A stretch of DNA of 64,000 nucleotides from Gammaproteobacteria bacterium (GTDB lineage Bacteria; Pseudomonadota; Gammaproteobacteria; Nitrosococcales; Methylophagaceae), in the NCBI GenBank assembly GCA_014859375.1, contig JACUUH010000001.1, positions 124,001-188,000 on the forward strand, read 5' to 3'. The stretch's first letter is position 1, and each line of letters opens with the position of its first letter. The position numbers and the translations under genes were made by a program. Under the pieces are notes generated by a model that saw only the letters and a program-made list of their open reading frames with translations, was not told the origin of the DNA and searched no databases. Shown piece by piece: positions 11,445 to 52,731 of the stretch.

Positions 11445-12041
11445 ATGAATTTACTAAAGAAATATAGCGGGGATATTGTTGTCTCCAATGAAGATATTGA
11501 CGAGTTGGAGTATGAGATATATCTAAAGGTCTCAGATTTTAAACAGTTGAAAAACGCCAAGTACTCAGAGCATCAAGAACAATGGCAAATGAGATTTAAC
11601 AAAGGTCCATTAGCTGTTAAGGTTAGATCAAGGAAATGCATTAGAGATGGTGATATTAAATACTACCTAACTACTAAATTGGATCTTGAAGATGTGGATG
11701 CCGCTTGGGAATTAGAAGATGAAGTAACTCGACTCCATTATGAAGAGATACGGGATTTGTCCGATAACGGTATGATTAAAGAAAGGTATTTCTTCCCTAT
11801 AAACGGTACAGACCTAGTTTGGGAAGTCGACGTCTTTAGTGATGACAACGGTGAGTTTATTGAATGGGTTAAAATTGACCTAGAGGTTCCACATCGTTTA
11901 GCTAAACTCCCTGAATTACCTATCGAAGGTACAGAAGTTATATTAGCTCAAAAAGGTGAGAGAACAGAAGAGGAAATTAACTTGATAGATAAGTTATACT
12001 CGGAGCATTTCATTATTTCTCCAAAAAAGAAAATAAATTGA
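11445..12041 (+). CDS. CYTH-domain protein (triphosphate tunnel family)
   Basis: 198 aa that reads as a CYTH domain, the beta-barrel 'tunnel' fold that binds triphosphates with divalent metal; known members include inorganic triphosphatase, thiamine triphosphatase and class IV adenylate cyclase. Visible blocks in order: YEIYLKV at 23-29 (family EIERKFLV), VKVRSRK at 58-64, YYLTTKLD at 73-80, IKERYFF at 111-117, WEVDVF at 126-131 and WVKIDLEVP at 141-149, then a LPELP...TEV end. The hallmark ExExK appears as E-Y-E-I-Y, with the Lys moved or lost, so activity is uncertain. The gene stands alone between two stem-loops. Substrate and role in infection are unknown. Confidence 0.65.
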   Translation: MNLLKKYSGDIVVSNEDIDELEYEIYLKVSDFKQLKNAKYSEHQEQWQMRFNKGPLAVKVRSRKCIRDGDIKYYLTTKLDLEDVDAAWELEDEVTRLHYEEIRDLSDNGMIKERYFFPINGTDLVWEVDVFSDDNGEFIEWVKIDLEVPHRLAKLPELPIEGTEVILAQKGERTEEEINLIDKLYSEHFIISPKKKIN

Positions 12042-12046
12042 TTAAT

Positions 12047-12070
12047 AGAGTCAGGGTTGCCCCTGACTCT
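12047..12070. terminator. bidirectional terminator
   Basis: AGAGTCAGGG / CCCTGACTCT stem with a TTGC loop, between convergent genes. The plus side continues ATATGTTTTTTTATTT and the minus side ATTAATCAATTTATTTT. Confidence 0.8.
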
Positions 12071-12080
12071 ATATGTTTTT

Positions 12081-12356
12081 TTATTTCTTTAGATAGTCTA
12101 ACTCATTTTGATATCTATGCAACATAGCCTTCTCAACATTATTCAGATTTTCATCCCCTTTAATTTTTAGTTCAAAGATTTTATCTGATAAAGTCTGCAC
12201 ACGAATTTCTGTAGCCACTGAACGTATTTCAGCTTTATTAGCCTCTACGTCCTTGGCTAACGCATATCTATCGTCTATAAGGGCTGCACCGCCCGTTACA
12301 CTACCTATTACAGCTAAAGCAGCTGTTATCTTCTTTAAGTTCTCGGATATACTCAT
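12081..12356 (-). CDS. small membrane protein in the lysis region
   Basis: 91 aa from ATG at 12356 (AAGGA nine bases upstream; an in-frame TTG at 12362 is too close to that site). One hydrophobic helix near the N-terminus (ITAALAVIGSVTGGAALI), then a charged, probably helical region to the C-terminus. It lies just downstream of the endolysin gene in the same unit. The shape suits a holin-class or inner-membrane lysis accessory protein. It is not clearly an i-spanin, because a better spanin pair is at 54887-55730. Confidence 0.6.
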   Translation of the reverse strand: MSISENLKKITAALAVIGSVTGGAALIDDRYALAKDVEANKAEIRSVATEIRVQTLSDKIFELKIKGDENLNNVEKAMLHRYQNELDYLKK

Positions 12357-12373
12357 TTTCAATAATCCTTATT

Positions 12374-13363
12374 CTACCTAGGTAAGCCTTTATGTGTAAT
12401 ATAAGCTCTTAGTAGTTTCTTATCATAGTCTTTATGATTAGGTCCATTATAGATCCTAGCGAAGACTTCCCAATCTTTAGTTTGTATAGCTTCTAGCAAT
12501 AATCTGTTAGATCTAATAAACTTAACAAATAACTCTAGTTGCCCCTCTTTAGTTTTAGCCTCTGAGACAAAGTCATACACGTTCTTGTAACCTAGAGTTC
12601 TCCAATGGAATCCCATGATTTGGTATGTACCCCATGAGGCGCTTTCCAATGCACTAGGCTCATGTATGCTCTTAGCTTGATCTAATCTAATATGTTCTCT
12701 AATACCGCCTTGGTAACCACCAGGTACTCTATTAACAATGTTAGGATATTTATCTTGCCAAACCAAAGGGTCTTTACCTTTAGAATTAAGCATTCTGTAC
12801 ATGATGTGTCTTTCGAACAAGATAGCTACGCTACCATCCTCAAAGAAACCTGAGCCAGACGACTCCACTTCAGCAACTGCTTTAATAGCCTCAACTTCAC
12901 ACAACAGAACCTTGGCTGCCTGCTCCACTGTTCTAATGTCTATGTCAGCAACAAAGTAATTGGATTCCAAAGCCTTTCTAGTCTTAGATCCAACTATACC
13001 GTCGGCTAACATTAGATTTCTAGATTGAAATACTTTTACGGCTCTTTCTGTACCGGGTCCAAATACCCCGTCCACTACAATGACACTTCCTAGATCTAAA
13101 AGCTTCTTCTGCAATACTTTTACAGCTTCACCTCTATTACCCTTTCTTAGTGTATCGGGTAATAGAACCACATTTAACTCTTTGTAAACCTTAGCATCAC
13201 TTCTTGCAAATAATTCCATTAATTGATCTAGTTCATCGGAATTATCTTTATCGAATTTAATGGTTAACTGCTCATCATCCCAGTACCAATAATTATCCCA
13301 CCCTGGATAAGTAATCCTTTCACCTTCTTCTCTAGCTAGCTGATAACTTTCTCTAAATAACAT
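12374..13363 (-). CDS. endolysin: peptidoglycan-binding domain plus N-acetylmuramidase
   Basis: Cell-wall hydrolase for host lysis. Residues ~72-132 form a PG_binding_1 domain (LRKGNRGEAVKVLQKKL, VDGVFGPGTERAVKVFQ, DGIVGSKTRKAL). Residues ~140-325 match the DUF3380 N-acetylmuramidase family: AVAEVESSGSGFF with likely catalytic Glu165 or Glu167, ILFERHIMYR at ~181, and SWGTYQIMGFHW. There is no signal peptide, so export needs a holin or membrane disruption. An extra ~65-residue N-terminal part (LAREEGERITYPGWDNYW...) precedes the binding domain and is not typical of the family. ATG at 13363 follows CAATAGAAG. Neighbours are two small membrane or lipid-anchored proteins. Confidence 0.88.
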   Translation of the reverse strand: MLFRESYQLAREEGERITYPGWDNYWYWDDEQLTIKFDKDNSDELDQLMELFARSDAKVYKELNVVLLPDTLRKGNRGEAVKVLQKKLLDLGSVIVVDGVFGPGTERAVKVFQSRNLMLADGIVGSKTRKALESNYFVADIDIRTVEQAAKVLLCEVEAIKAVAEVESSGSGFFEDGSVAILFERHIMYRMLNSKGKDPLVWQDKYPNIVNRVPGGYQGGIREHIRLDQAKSIHEPSALESASWGTYQIMGFHWRTLGYKNVYDFVSEAKTKEGQLELFVKFIRSNRLLLEAIQTKDWEVFARIYNGPNHKDYDKKLLRAYITHKGLPR

Positions 13364-13388
13364 CTTCTATTGCCCTTTTATTAATGAC

Positions 13389-13402
13389 GTCATAAAATGA
13401 GG
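13389..13402 (-). promoter_or_regulatory. candidate phage promoter element
   Basis: On the minus strand this reads CCTCATTTTATGAC, identical over 14 bases to the plus-strand site at 33547-33560. Both sites are followed by CAATAGAAG before the gene start (endolysin here). It partly overlaps the terminator arm of the upstream lipoprotein gene. Function inferred. Confidence 0.35.
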
Positions 13403-13423
13403 CTGGGATTACCCAGCCTCATT
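13397..13423 (-). terminator. terminator after the lipoprotein gene
   Basis: Twelve-base-pair stem AATGAGGCTGGG / CCCAGCCTCATT with a three-base loop, just past the stop of the minus-strand lipoprotein gene, followed in that direction by TTATGACGTCA. Confidence 0.75.
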
Positions 13424-13431
13424 GGTTATCA

Positions 13432-13632
13432 TTACTCGTTAGCATAACATTGTACTCTAACCACGTGAGGTTGAGTTGCTTTATCTACTTCTTCACGAAG
13501 CACAGCTCTTTTCTCAGGGGTAGTAGTACATACATTGTTTGCACCATATTTAATGGCTTCAACTGTGGTGCTGCAACCTGCAGCTAAGAACAATGCAGGT
13601 ACAATGGCCAAAACCATTAGTAACTTCTTCAT
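13432..13632 (-). CDS. small lipoprotein, lysis-region
   Basis: 66-aa predicted outer-membrane lipoprotein. The start at 13632 (MKKLLMVLAIVP) is chosen for its AGAGGG site and because it yields a clean type II signal peptide; an upstream TTG would add five residues. The lipobox is LAAGC, with Cys about 20 residues in. The short mature part has two more Cys and no proline-rich stretch. Its place just upstream of the endolysin suggests a lysis or superinfection-related envelope role; it could be a second o-spanin-like protein. It has its own terminator, so it is not simply co-transcribed with the endolysin. Confidence 0.65.
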   Translation of the reverse strand: MKKLLMVLAIVPALFLAAGCSTTVEAIKYGANNVCTTTPEKRAVLREEVDKATQPHVVRVQCYANE

Positions 13633-13704: not shown

Positions 13705-14412
13705 TTATCTTTCTAAAAATAAAGCAAGTGCTTCACTATCGTTTAACGGTCTATTAAAAATTCTTACTTGATCTATTAAACCAACGTAATAAGTACTTAC
13801 CTCAGTTCCAGTCAAAGGAGACTGTGGGCTACCGCCTATCGAATCTTGATTGGTGCCGTCTTTAAATATCCCTGTGAAATCAGACACTAGTTTCCCGTTA
13901 ACATACAGTTTATTATAATCTGTATTAACTTCCCTAGTGGCAATAACATGATACCAGGTATCTGGTTCTATAACAAAGGAAGTCTCACCAAATGTTAAAC
14001 CTCCGCCTCTAAGACCAAGTCTAATCTTACCTTCGTAGATACCTACAGCCCAGCCATTAGTTTGACCACCAAAATTTAAGAAGGTGGCATGTTGATAAAC
14101 ATTATTAGTTTTAAACCAGCAAGAAGTTGAAAAATCTGTGGCTGGGTCACCAAAAACCCCTTGCACTAATTTTATCCTATTCACCGTGCCGTCAAAGTTA
14201 CCTGATAACCCAACGACGCCATTTACATAACTTACACCTAAGTCCTCGCCGTGATTAACCCCACTTACATTTAGAGCGTTACCGTCTAGAGGGAAAAGAG
14301 CTAAGCCGCTATTATCTTGAAAAGGATCTAGAAGACTTGCTGTGTATTGATATTTAAGACTTGGTTTTTTAACACCTTTTTTCAGTAGGTTAAACACTAC
14401 ATTAGTCAGCAT
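13705..14412 (-). CDS. modular adhesin: LLKKG N-terminal motif plus LamG/ConA-like lectin domain
   Basis: 235-aa probable receptor-binding protein. The first ~15 residues (MLTNVVFNLLKKGVKK) match the short N-terminal motif of five other genes in the window. Residues ~35-235 form a LamG/concanavalin-like domain: LALFPLDGNAL, FDGTVNRIKL, FSTSCWFKTN, EPDTWYHVIATRE, KLYVNGKLV and YVGLIDQVRIFNRPLNDSE are the usual strands of that fold, which binds glycans or proteins. AGAGG precedes the ATG. The motif's A-tract is A6 here and the frame is intact. Confidence 0.75.
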   Translation of the reverse strand: MLTNVVFNLLKKGVKKPSLKYQYTASLLDPFQDNSGLALFPLDGNALNVSGVNHGEDLGVSYVNGVVGLSGNFDGTVNRIKLVQGVFGDPATDFSTSCWFKTNNVYQHATFLNFGGQTNGWAVGIYEGKIRLGLRGGGLTFGETSFVIEPDTWYHVIATREVNTDYNKLYVNGKLVSDFTGIFKDGTNQDSIGGSPQSPLTGTEVSTYYVGLIDQVRIFNRPLNDSEALALFLER

Positions 14413-30742: not shown

Positions 30743-31213
30743 ATGTCAGTTGATAAAGTTAAAGTGTTTGACAAGGCTACTAATGCTAAGATATTAGCGA
30801 TGGTTGAAAACATAGATGAATCTAGATGGTTTCACATCTCTAAATTACAGAAAGGTAGAGGTGTAGTGAATGATACTGATGCCTATTATTTTAAATGTAA
30901 AGATTGGAGTATTCCTAAAGAACTTAAAGAACTTCTTTTTAGTCTAGCGCCTAAGTTCGAACCCTTTGAGACTAGTGAAATAGTTATCAACCGATATTTA
31001 CCAGGTGGATTTATTCCAGCGCACACAGATAAGGATAGGTATCTGAAAAATGTAATTGTACCCCTACAGAGCGGTGACGATGGCATCACAATAGAAGATA
31101 CCTTTTATAAGGATGAAGCTGGTATAGGAATAGTCTTTAACGGCACAGGTCCTGTGCATGAAGTAAAAAAAGTAAAAGACTTTAGATACACCGTAATCTT
31201 TTTAATAGGATAA
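30743..31213 (+). CDS. 2-oxoglutarate/Fe(II) oxygenase
   Basis: 156 aa with a double-stranded beta-helix oxygenase core. The segment VINRYLPGGFIPAHTDKDRY gives the HxD iron ligands (His94, Asp96); the distal His is in GPVHEV (His139), and Arg148 in FRYTVIF is placed to bind 2-oxoglutarate. The family includes prolyl, asparaginyl and nucleic-acid oxidases. It lies in the fibre island next to another small protein and between fibre genes, so a structural protein is a plausible substrate, perhaps a fibre side chain; this is inference. A DNA or host target is not excluded. Confidence 0.75.
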   Translation: MSVDKVKVFDKATNAKILAMVENIDESRWFHISKLQKGRGVVNDTDAYYFKCKDWSIPKELKELLFSLAPKFEPFETSEIVINRYLPGGFIPAHTDKDRYLKNVIVPLQSGDDGITIEDTFYKDEAGIGIVFNGTGPVHEVKKVKDFRYTVIFLIG

Positions 31214-33583: not shown

Positions 33584-34280
33584 ATGAGCGTTAAGAACTT
33601 ATCAAAAGTTATGCGGATGGTGAGCAGGGGACTTAGCAATAAAAAAAAAGAGTATCTATAAATTACTGAACGGAAATCTACCTAATATAAATTTTCTTAG
33701 TGTAAATTCTTTTGAATTTACAAGTGGGTACGACATAGCTTTAGATGGATACGCTAACAGGTGGGATGTTGACTTCCATGGTAATGAAAAAAATTATTCC
33801 GTCCTTTTAACAGAGGACTTAACTGATGATTTTGATCTATCATTTAAACTAACGTCATTAGAATACTTTTCTTTTGGGTATATAGGAGTTATTGCTTTAG
33901 ATGAATATAATCAAATGTATGGTCGTCCGCTCACTGAAATTAACTCCTATGAAGGATGGTACGGTGGCGCACCCTTCATTAGAATATACACTGATAGCGG
34001 CAGCACTACCTATTCTAGTGTTAGATGCGCAAATGGGGGCATTGATTGTTTGAAGGATATCGTTTATGAATTAGTAATTAGTAGACGAGGGAATTCTATC
34101 AACACTAATACCTACATTAACGGTAGTTTAATAATGAGCGTTAATCGCACAATAAGTCCGTCTGTGAAACTTGGTGTGTTTCACGTCTTTAGCTCTAGCG
34201 GTGATAGTAAATATAGAGGTCTAAATGGTGAATATCAATCTACCACGGTTTACGATATACTACTAAATAAGATTATTTAA
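33584..34280 (+). pseudogene. frame-disrupted modular adhesin, ConA-like
   Basis: The start ATG (33584, AAGGAA upstream) encodes MSVKNLSKVMRMVSRGLSNK, a variant of the LLKKG-type N-terminal motif, then stops at 33659-33661. The following 620 bases are open in the +1 frame and encode a beta-rich domain (YELVISRRGNSINTNTYING, FHVFSSSGDSKY) like a concanavalin-type jelly roll. The frames overlap at an A9 tract (33641-33649); with A8 the two parts join into one 231-aa protein with no other change. This could be an inactive gene, slippage-controlled expression, phase variation or sequencing error. The tract follows the motif directly. Confidence 0.7.
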
Positions 34281-34303: not shown

Positions 34304-34925
34304 ATGAAATCGGCAAATACAGTTTTTAACCTTATAAGGATAGGGACGTCTAAAAAAACAACGCGAGTTACTTACCCTCTTTTAGGTGAAAAATGCAGTG
34401 TATCCAATAAGTGACTTTTCACCAAGTGATTTCCCTACACCTATAACTGGACTGACTTCATCGTATAACAATGGAATAGTCAACATTACATTGAATGCAG
34501 TGCCATACGGATCTAGGCACGGTTGGAAGGTAATAGACGATAACGCGGGGGGTGGTTTCCTAGCTCCTGCTAATAACGCTAACGTTATTTGGACGCCAAT
34601 AGAAAATACCAATCCGGCAAGTATTGACTTTGAATTCCTTAACGATGATGTCGTTGTTAAATCAGCTTTTTTAAGACCATATGGGTTAGGTATCGGATAC
34701 TTACCTAAGAAAGTCATATTCGAAGGTAGTCACGACGGTGTAACTTATGAACCGATTAGTGAAGTGTTATCCCTTCCTGATAACCCATATGGTCAAGTAT
34801 ACATCTTGACACACTACACCCTTAACCCTCTAGGTAAATCTTTTAAACATATAAAATTTACAGCGATTGATGGAACGCCTATTCACTCAGGATTCCAACT
34901 TATAAATGACTTATACTTTTATTAG
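34304..34925 (+). pseudogene. frame-disrupted modular adhesin, discoidin-like
   Basis: ATG at 34304 encodes MKSANTVFNLIRIGTSKKTT, another copy of the N-terminal motif, and the frame stops at about 34412. The rest is open in the +1 frame to 34925 and encodes a beta domain with LPKKVIFEGSHDGVTYEPIS and FKHIKFTAIDGTPIHSG, close to discoidin (F5/8 type C, CBM32-like) glycan-binding domains. Because of a stop in the second frame at 34383, the only joint without other changes is at or near GGTGAAAAATGC (A5, 34389-34393); one A fewer restores a single 206-aa protein. It is the second broken member in a row. Confidence 0.65.
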
Positions 34926-50520: not shown

Positions 50521-50557
50521 TTACTAAAGGAGTCGATGACTCCTTTAGTAATTTATA
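50521..50557. terminator. bidirectional terminator with TTTATACC tail
   Basis: Stem TTACTAAAGGAGTC / GACTCCTTTAGTAA (50521-50551), then TTTATACC in the plus direction, between convergent genes. Confidence 0.85.
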
Positions 50558-51126
50558 CCGGATATTTAATATCGCCACCTACGAATACTTTTAAAGTACC
50601 AGAGCCTGAACCAGCGCTCCTATTACCCATAGTAAGGTAAAGACCACCTTCTAAAGGATAAGTCTTATCCACCGTGTACCCCACGGCCTGTTGACCGTTG
50701 TGATAAAAATCTATGGTTTTATCTATGTTGTTTATAACTATACCTAATCGGTCACCCGCCACTATACCGCTATTATAACTGTAGAACAGAGCGTTGGTTT
50801 GCGTTAGAGTTGTAGATCCGGTTAAGAAAGCATTCTTATCTACTTCGGTTAAAACATAGACTGATAGTAAAGGACTACCGCCAGAGGTCATGTTTTGATT
50901 AGGTTCTAATTCTACATGGACTATATCTTGCTGCTCAAGATTATTTTCAAATACACTGAACCCGCTAGATCTACCAAAACCGAAAACATTAGTTTCTTCA
51001 TTAAATGTGTTACTGCTGCCTCCAGCGTGTATCAGAGACCCCAATAAACTTGTTGGGGAAATAAAAGGTTTTATTTTTTTTACTAAAACCTTTAGATATC
51101 ATTTGAAAAGCTACTTTATTTAACAT
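50553..51126 (-). pseudogene. frame-disrupted modular adhesin, SPRY-like
   Basis: ATG at 51126, one base after the stop of the upstream adhesin gene, encodes MLNKVAFQMISKGFSKK, the shared N-terminal motif, and then the frame ends at ~51010. The rest is open in the +1 frame and encodes a SPRY-like beta domain (GDRLGIVINNIDKTIDFYHN is the typical strand pair). An A8 tract (51074-51081) directly after the motif lies where the frames overlap; with A7 they join into one 190-aa protein through FISPTSLLGSLIHAGG. This is the third broken member of the family, again by one extra base. Confidence 0.7.
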
Positions 51127-51127
51127 A

Positions 51128-51865
51128 TTAAATATCTAACTCCAATATAGGTCTCCAACAAAAGGTGCCGTATGTTGCAGATTTAGTAAAATCAGAAGTG
51201 TGGACATATCCCATTGAATAAAAACCTAGAGGTCTAGTTCTAGCACTACCCTCCATGGTAAATTGCCACTCTACCCCTTCACCTATTATACTCAATGGGT
51301 ATGTTGCCCATTTATCAAACCCCGACTCTGTCTCGTCGATTATGTTAAAGAATATTTTACCGTACTCACTATCTCTAAGAAAATTATATTGCGCATGGCC
51401 TAATTTTCCAGTATAGTCTACGGGTTCAGGTTTATTAAGTTTTAACAACCTAACCTTAAAAACATTATCACCTACGGTTATTCTCTTATCCTGTAAAGTG
51501 TCTATTGTAGATGGATAAGTTCCAAAGGTATCATCGCCATAAACCATACCAGCTGCGTATATGCTGTTCCAGTTAACACTCATTCTTATACGTCGTTTAG
51601 GGTAGAAGATAATTTTGCCGTCTATGATAAACTTTAACCATCCATCTGAATTATCTGTAAGAGTACCTTGGTAATAACCTGTTAAGTCGCAAAGTTCTTG
51701 AGGTGTTATGAAATCTTCGTTAGGGACTTCACCATAGAATCCATGAGTGTCATCGCCCCCTATGAGAACATTAGAACCGGGTGTGATCAAAGAAGGGTTA
51801 AATGATCTTTTGACCTTAATACCTTTTTTTAATAAACTAAAGGCTGCTTTAGTAAATCGTGACAT
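51128..51865 (-). CDS. modular adhesin: LLKKG motif plus lectin-like domain
   Basis: 245 aa. The N-terminus MSRFTKAAFSLLKKGIKVKR carries the shared motif (A7 tract, frame intact). The C-terminal ~120 residues are homologous to the protein at 10799: VNWNSIYAAGMVYGDDT, ITVGDNVFKVRLLKL, and an end CWRPILELDI. A TFGT/WRP-type lectin-like fold is inferred. Downstream it is coupled to the broken adhesin at 51126 (one base between stop and start). Confidence 0.7.
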   Translation of the reverse strand: MSRFTKAAFSLLKKGIKVKRSFNPSLITPGSNVLIGGDDTHGFYGEVPNEDFITPQELCDLTGYYQGTLTDNSDGWLKFIIDGKIIFYPKRRIRMSVNWNSIYAAGMVYGDDTFGTYPSTIDTLQDKRITVGDNVFKVRLLKLNKPEPVDYTGKLGHAQYNFLRDSEYGKIFFNIIDETESGFDKWATYPLSIIGEGVEWQFTMEGSARTRPLGFYSMGYVHTSDFTKSATYGTFCWRPILELDI

Positions 51866-51888: not shown

Positions 51889-52731
51889 TTAAGTTAAAAC
51901 GTATTCGAAAACTGTTTTAAATTCATTACCTAAAATAAAAAATTTATCACCCGTTGGTTTTAAATAAAAACTTACGATATTAGATTCTAGACTTGAGAAG
52001 TCTAAAGCTACATTATCAGCGGAGAAACTTATTGGGTTCTCACTAAAGGTATACTGACTTATAGTAGAGTTTGCGGTGTTTAACTGTAAGAATTTTTCAT
52101 TTGGTGAATATAAGGTGTGAGAAATATATGCTCTCCTTAATGAAGGTCCAGCATATATACCAGTTGTGTATGTAGCATTAGCGATATCAAAAGGTGTGGG
52201 CATTGTAAATACTACTACTTGACCGGTACTGCTACTATTTACAAAAACATACTTTCCATCGGATGAGAACGTTAACGCTCTAGCCGTATTTATGAAATTT
52301 TTAATACTTCTAGATTTAATGATTGCTCCAAGGCTGTTTATATTAAACTTATCATTAACTTCATATTCAACTATATTCGCTGAGGTTGATGTGTCGGATA
52401 AAAGGAAAATTGACAATCCGTCTGCCTTCCAATTAAATGCGTGGTAATTGTGACTTCCGAAGATATAGCTACTCTGTAGAAATACGCTACCCAGGTCGTT
52501 AAGTATAGTAAACGAATATTGATACATTCCTGTACCCGTGAGTATATAGAGAACATCAGCATTGGGATTAAATTGAAAATCCCTAACTGTTTCGCCATCT
52601 AACCCTGGTAGGGTACCTGTATTATTACCTTGGTAGGAAAACTCACTTAAATCCACAGGTCTGGCAGATTTTGGTTGACCACGTAATCCTTTTTTTAATA
52701 AAGAGAATGCTATTTTATTAAAATCTGTCAT
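51889..52731 (-). CDS. modular adhesin: LLKKG motif plus beta-propeller
   Basis: 280 aa. The N-terminus MTDFNKIAFSLLKKGLRG has the shared motif (A7 tract). The remainder is a run of ~40-residue blade-like repeats: FQFNPNADVLYILTGTG, FNWKADGLSIFLLSDTS, LTFSSDGKYVFVNSSST, LYSPNEKFLQLN, FYLKPTGDKFFILGN, each ending near a (Y/F)-x-(Y/F)-x-(L/F) strand, as in beta-propellers. The stop of the upstream gene is three bases before its ATG, so the two are co-translated. Confidence 0.7.
   Translation of the reverse strand: MTDFNKIAFSLLKKGLRGQPKSARPVDLSEFSYQGNNTGTLPGLDGETVRDFQFNPNADVLYILTGTGMYQYSFTILNDLGSVFLQSSYIFGSHNYHAFNWKADGLSIFLLSDTSTSANIVEYEVNDKFNINSLGAIIKSRSIKNFINTARALTFSSDGKYVFVNSSSTGQVVVFTMPTPFDIANATYTTGIYAGPSLRRAYISHTLYSPNEKFLQLNTANSTISQYTFSENPISFSADNVALDFSSLESNIVSFYLKPTGDKFFILGNEFKTVFEYVLT

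Follow-up and report, generated by a model that had tools for sequence, protein, structure and literature searches.

Three adhesin genes of a putative adhesin family in a large phage are broken at runs of adenine, at the point where a short N-terminal head meets a variable body. The genes lie on C4, a 209,130-base contig binned with a 2.35-Mb bacterial assembly. The window, the whole 64,000-nucleotide stretch analysed here, covers bases 124001-188000 of this contig; coordinates below are those of the window unless C4 or another record is named. C4 is a phiKZ-like phage, with a phiKZ-type major head protein (phrog_3231, E 5e-193) and virion proteins present, further family matches being to phrog_3004 (E 4e-214) and phrog_3293 (E 2e-124). 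It holds seven head-plus-body genes, in which a short head precedes a body that varies among lectin-like and virion domains; of the seven, three are intact and four broken, and three of the broken ones are interrupted at the longest A-run of their head, namely A8, A9 and A10. We tentatively read these heads as slippage-prone contingency loci of modular phage adhesins, which would be turned ON and OFF by replication slippage, and we put this reading at slightly less than an even chance.

The A8 gene illustrates the arrangement. Its head open reading frame (ORF; 51010..51126, minus strand) begins with an ATG at 51126 that has GGAG upstream, and the 38 codons read MLNKVAFQMISKG FSKKNKTFYFPNKFIGVSDTRWRQQ-stop. 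The N-terminal motif is MLNKVAFQMISKGFSKK, and directly beyond it lies the A8 tract (51074..51081, minus strand, AGT AAA AAA AAT), exactly where the earlier note had placed it. The tract supplies the SKK codons of FSKK and the start of the next codon, after which the head frame continues for 21 out-of-frame codons and stops. A second frame (...KKIKPFISPTSLLGSLIHAGG..., stop at 50553) stays open across A8 and encodes the body (50553..51074, minus strand), a SPRY/ConA-like domain of more than 170 open codons with no start codon that has a ribosome site. Because the linker past the break, KIKPFISPTSLLGSLIHAGG, is similar to the linker KVKRSFNPSLITPGSNVLIGGD of the intact neighbour, the break can be placed at or near A8. 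The earlier description of the body as SPRY-like holds in part: there is a match to Pfam SPRY, but it is below threshold (E 3e-4, 21.2 bits against a cut-off of 26.3). A structure search with a low-confidence model of the body gave weak SPRY/glucanase-like matches only, the AlphaFold models being too poor to fix a fold.

Two intact paralogues stand next to the A8 gene on the minus strand. The nearer one (51128..51865) has the head MSRFTKAAFSLLKKG and a phrog_1062/3589 virion-protein body, and the other (51889..52731) has the head MTDFNKIAFSLLKKG and a beta-propeller-like body with a weak Pfam match. Both carry A7 in their LLKKG codons as the earlier note had said, at 51824-51830 and 52690-52696 respectively. 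Its claim that the breaks fall at the same place is approximate, since relative to the motif the neighbours' A7 lies about four codons upstream of the A8 position. The third intact member (13705..14412, minus strand) has the head MLTNVVFNLLKKG, two A6 runs and a Laminin_G_3 body (E 1.7e-20). On the plus strand, the first broken adhesin has a head ORF at 33584..33661 that reads MSVKNLSKVMRMVSRGLSNKKKEYL-stop, an A9 tract at 33641..33649 where the frame breaks with an offset identical to that of the A8 gene, and a body at 33651..34280 with about 209 open codons, in whose first part there is no start codon that has a ribosome site. The A10 gene (C4 121844-122619), which has a phrog_1062 body, lies beyond the window. 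The fourth broken gene, again on the plus strand, has a head ORF at 34304..34414 (MKSANTVFNLIRIGTSKKTTRV...) with an in-frame A7 at 34352-34358; its break is further downstream, near an A5 at 34389-34393, and its body (34386..34925) bears a weak resemblance to F5/8 type C (Pfam E 0.23). The heads have a start codon with a ribosome site and the bodies have none. The head motif has statistical support in five members and is weaker in two. A leave-one-out motif scan that covered every N-terminus gives five heads scores of 22-27; 236 other genes score at most 10, and the head at 34304 scores 9.3 (rank 2). The head at 33584 is missed by the ungapped scan; in gapped alignment its best partner is the A8 head (37, with 32 for the best other gene).

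The placement of the A-runs is what distinguishes this family. Across the window A7 runs are not in excess, with 51 occurrences of AAAAAAA against 43 +/- 9 expected. In the first 105 nucleotides, however, A7 or longer is found in 6 of 7 family heads versus 11 of 227 other genes (Fisher p 4e-7), and Lys-Lys pairs are written AAA-AAA in 9 of 9 cases in family heads versus 18 of 58 at the starts of other genes (p 1e-4); both p-values are optimistic, the paralogues not being independent. Genome-wide, AAA-AAA accounts for 62 of 280 Lys-Lys pairs. All seven heads contain runs of A6-A10, while the bodies of the same genes are nearly free of such runs. Within genes of C4, A-runs of at least nine occur only as this A9 and this A10, the others being intergenic or at gene ends. 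Tracts are commoner in the family heads than elsewhere in the genome, the distribution that would be looked for in contingency loci. Common descent of a single run is insufficient to account for this, because the run of the intact members lies in LLKKG and that of the broken members lies past the motif. As a separate observation on the whole 2.35-Mb assembly, 15 of its 18 A10 runs fall in C4, mostly between genes. Truncation by the sequencer was considered as the cause of the A10/T10 peak in C4 and rejected, since A/T runs of 9-13 are present in related phages from other assemblies.

In the A8, A9 and A10 genes a homopolymer early in the coding sequence, at the head/body joint, sets the frame of what follows. 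Restoring the body frame requires +1 or -2 in the A8 and A9 genes, that is a one-base deletion or a two-base insertion, and -1 or +2 in the A10 gene, where one inserted base would suffice for repair by slippage. A single programmed ribosomal frameshift is disfavoured because the offsets differ in direction among the genes; variable tract length or transcriptional slippage accounts for such differences. Loss-of-function lesions in the downstream domains were looked for, and none was found in these three bodies, which are otherwise open for 170-240 codons. The earlier note had seen two genes broken by one extra A just past the motif and had argued from this against random decay. The shared offset of the A8 and A9 genes agrees with the first claim, with the reservation that the A9 gene shows the motif only with gapped alignment. 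The argument against decay gains from the third member with its A10, from the enrichment of A-runs in heads and from the lack of a comparable broken gene elsewhere in C4 apart from one conserved -1 site, and it loses from the opposite direction of the A10 offset and from the break near A5 in the fourth member.

As a mechanism, we suggest that the short head probably anchors the adhesin to the virion and that a Lys-rich linker would join it to a domain drawn from a set of lectin-like or virion types. The lysines of linker or motif would be encoded as runs of A, and runs of A8-A10 may slip, most likely while the phage DNA replicates, so that each gene changes frame and the full adhesin is made by only a fraction of phages. 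As assembled, the consensus has three genes OFF at an A-run of 8-10 and three ON. We infer slippage in vivo, its reversibility, display on the virion and a benefit against changing host surfaces. It is also possible, if somewhat less probable than switching as such, that the family forms an adhesin bank with a common head, different lectin domains and a separate poly-A switch for each gene, so that single bursts would give virions with different sets of adhesins.

Several observations weigh against switching. Variation in tract length was not seen in the single consensus, and the phage, IMG/VR and genome collections hold no near-identical record. A8 is short for a contingency tract, and AAA is somewhat favoured for Lys near gene starts in general. 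The break of the fourth member near an A5 looks like plain decay. The nearest relative found for C4, a 114-kb IMG/VR fragment (G95) that is largely collinear and has a head protein 59% identical, has a single distantly similar adhesin head with no A-run there, and the A10 gene is missing from it.

The A-tracts may instead be fixed, and every phage would then make a small, constant proportion of full-length adhesin from unchanged DNA by transcriptional slippage or ribosomal frameshifting. We consider this unlikely, although transcriptional slippage is a serious rival, above all for the A10 gene. Insertions predominate at A/T runs and grow exponentially with run length (PMC5574713), and an A/T run of about nine or longer between the two frames, as is typical of transcriptional slippage, is found in the A9 and A10 genes and is borderline in the A8 gene. 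The A8 and A9 genes, however, require the rarer outcomes of a one-base deletion or a two-base insertion. Frameshifting would find precedent in phages that add Ig-like domains by frame changes either way (PMC5009743); in the A10 gene, A AAA AAA could act as a -1 slippery heptamer, and in a different gene of this lineage a T7/T8 run appears to be a conserved -1 site. Programmed ribosomal frameshifting calls for a conserved slippery site and one direction, but here the direction is not uniform, no orthologue with a conserved site was found, and conservation of the tract sites is seen in no relative. The zero-frame products would moreover be peptides of 25-38 amino acids, whereas in known cases the product is a main structural protein. 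Recent, independent loss of dispensable adhesins seems to us equally unlikely: Lys-rich linkers would be hotspots of insertion and deletion, and the broken genes would be young pseudogenes that gain nothing from slipping. Adhesin repertoires are presumably redundant, A-runs mutate readily, and the fourth member is broken further downstream. Against loss, the three bodies are free of second lesions, the scan of C4 found no comparable broken gene outside the family, and the intact heads are A-run-enriched too, though AAA-AAA is a minority choice elsewhere.

Misreading of long A-runs in sequencing or assembly is improbable. We have one consensus from what the 106 contigs suggest is a metagenome-assembled genome, and A8, A9 and A10 are all among the longer runs. 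On the other hand, 354 kb of the assembly's bacterial contigs contain 25 A8/T8 runs, of which 15 lie well within intact ORFs, as does one A10, and four A8/T8 runs lie in intact ORFs of other phage genes of C4. The genes conserved between C4 and G95 are in frame, save for one insertion and one conserved frameshift site, and A/T runs of at least nine are not peculiar to this assembly. Slightly more doubtful still is the idea that the A-tract serves as a joint for domain capture by recombination and that the out-of-frame genes are failed joints. Related heads do bear unrelated bodies and the breaks do fall at the head/body joint, but failed joints would be expected to vanish quickly, and the similarity of the A8-gene linker to that of its intact paralogue makes the joint look old.

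A scan of C4 for bodies without starts gave one clear case beyond the adhesin family, at C4 62329-64298. There a phrog_4585 protein stops just past a T7 (C4 63804-63810), and the -1 frame runs for about 160 codons with no start (YPSRP...). The same layout, with a T8 at 31069, is present in G95. Judged from the two sequences, a programmed -1 frameshift appears to be conserved here. Another gene is one ORF in G95 (11479-13626) and is interrupted by about 1.2 kb in C4 (40976-44327), perhaps by an intron or intein.

The head proteins of C4 are 31-43% identical to those of LucasX, 201phi2-1, Goslar and others (tblastn). DNA comparison with INPHARED found no close relative, and neither did scans of IMG/VR and GTDB contigs with single proteins. 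Scans based on alignments yielded 151 loci (71 + 80) of distant relatives, just one of them above 52% head-protein identity, and a second copy of the phage was found neither in the genus or family of the metagenome-assembled genome nor in its sampled class. About 3 Mb of related loci beyond C4 contain no copy of the strict head motif, and a single IMG/VR match to the motif pattern proved unrelated. The distantly similar head in G95 (MGNKMNNGILALIAKG; G95 102362-103141, L222:2362-3141) precedes a different body and has no A-run. G95 also has two adhesin-like genes (110140-110886 and 112818-113756) in which repeat bodies follow a different kind of short repeated head (NGVxV...NGxxVW). A circular C4 closed by a 159-bp overlap was rejected, its ends having only a tRNA-like repeat in common; this repeat (C4 1-201 and 208930-209130) has near-identical flanks of 54 and 77 nucleotides and a differing middle, and may represent a tandem pair of tRNA genes where the ends of a circular map meet.

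Should the tracts vary, simple slippage would let a large phage diversify its host-binding proteins at several genes simultaneously, and no diversity-generating retroelement or invertase would be required. Such variation would also caution against labelling genes of this kind pseudogenes, and it would extend what is known of poly-G in Campylobacter phages to poly-A in phiKZ-like phages.

In Campylobacter phages a coding homopolymer can switch a receptor-binding gene, with several loci per phage, and in Fletchervirus these genes reportedly carry hypermutable poly-G tracts (Sorensen et al. 2021, Cell Rep 35:109214, as cited in PMC10877375 and PMC9311878). The adhesin genes of C4 likewise have an in-frame homopolymer at several loci; they differ in their A8-A10 tracts, in their short head-plus-domain genes, in belonging to a phiKZ-like jumbo phage and in being known from one consensus. 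The device in C4 may be a poly-A, modular-head version of this switching in a different phage group. As in the transcriptional slippage genes T. thermophilus dnaX, Shigella mxiE and those of IS elements (PMC1088944), an A/T run of about nine lies between two frames of one protein, but the C4 sites show no conservation, their offsets differ and the short product has no known function. As with the Ig-like domains of phage virion proteins (PMC5009743), a frame change, one way or the other, would be needed to include a surface domain. In those proteins the zero frame gives a major structural protein, whereas in C4 it gives a peptide of 25-38 amino acids. Finally, the A10 gene and the intact gene at 51128-51865 have bodies that belong to the phiKZ-like virion-protein families phrog_1062 and phrog_3589, which occur as tandem paralogues in Noxifer and there, unlike the C4 genes, lack the head motif.
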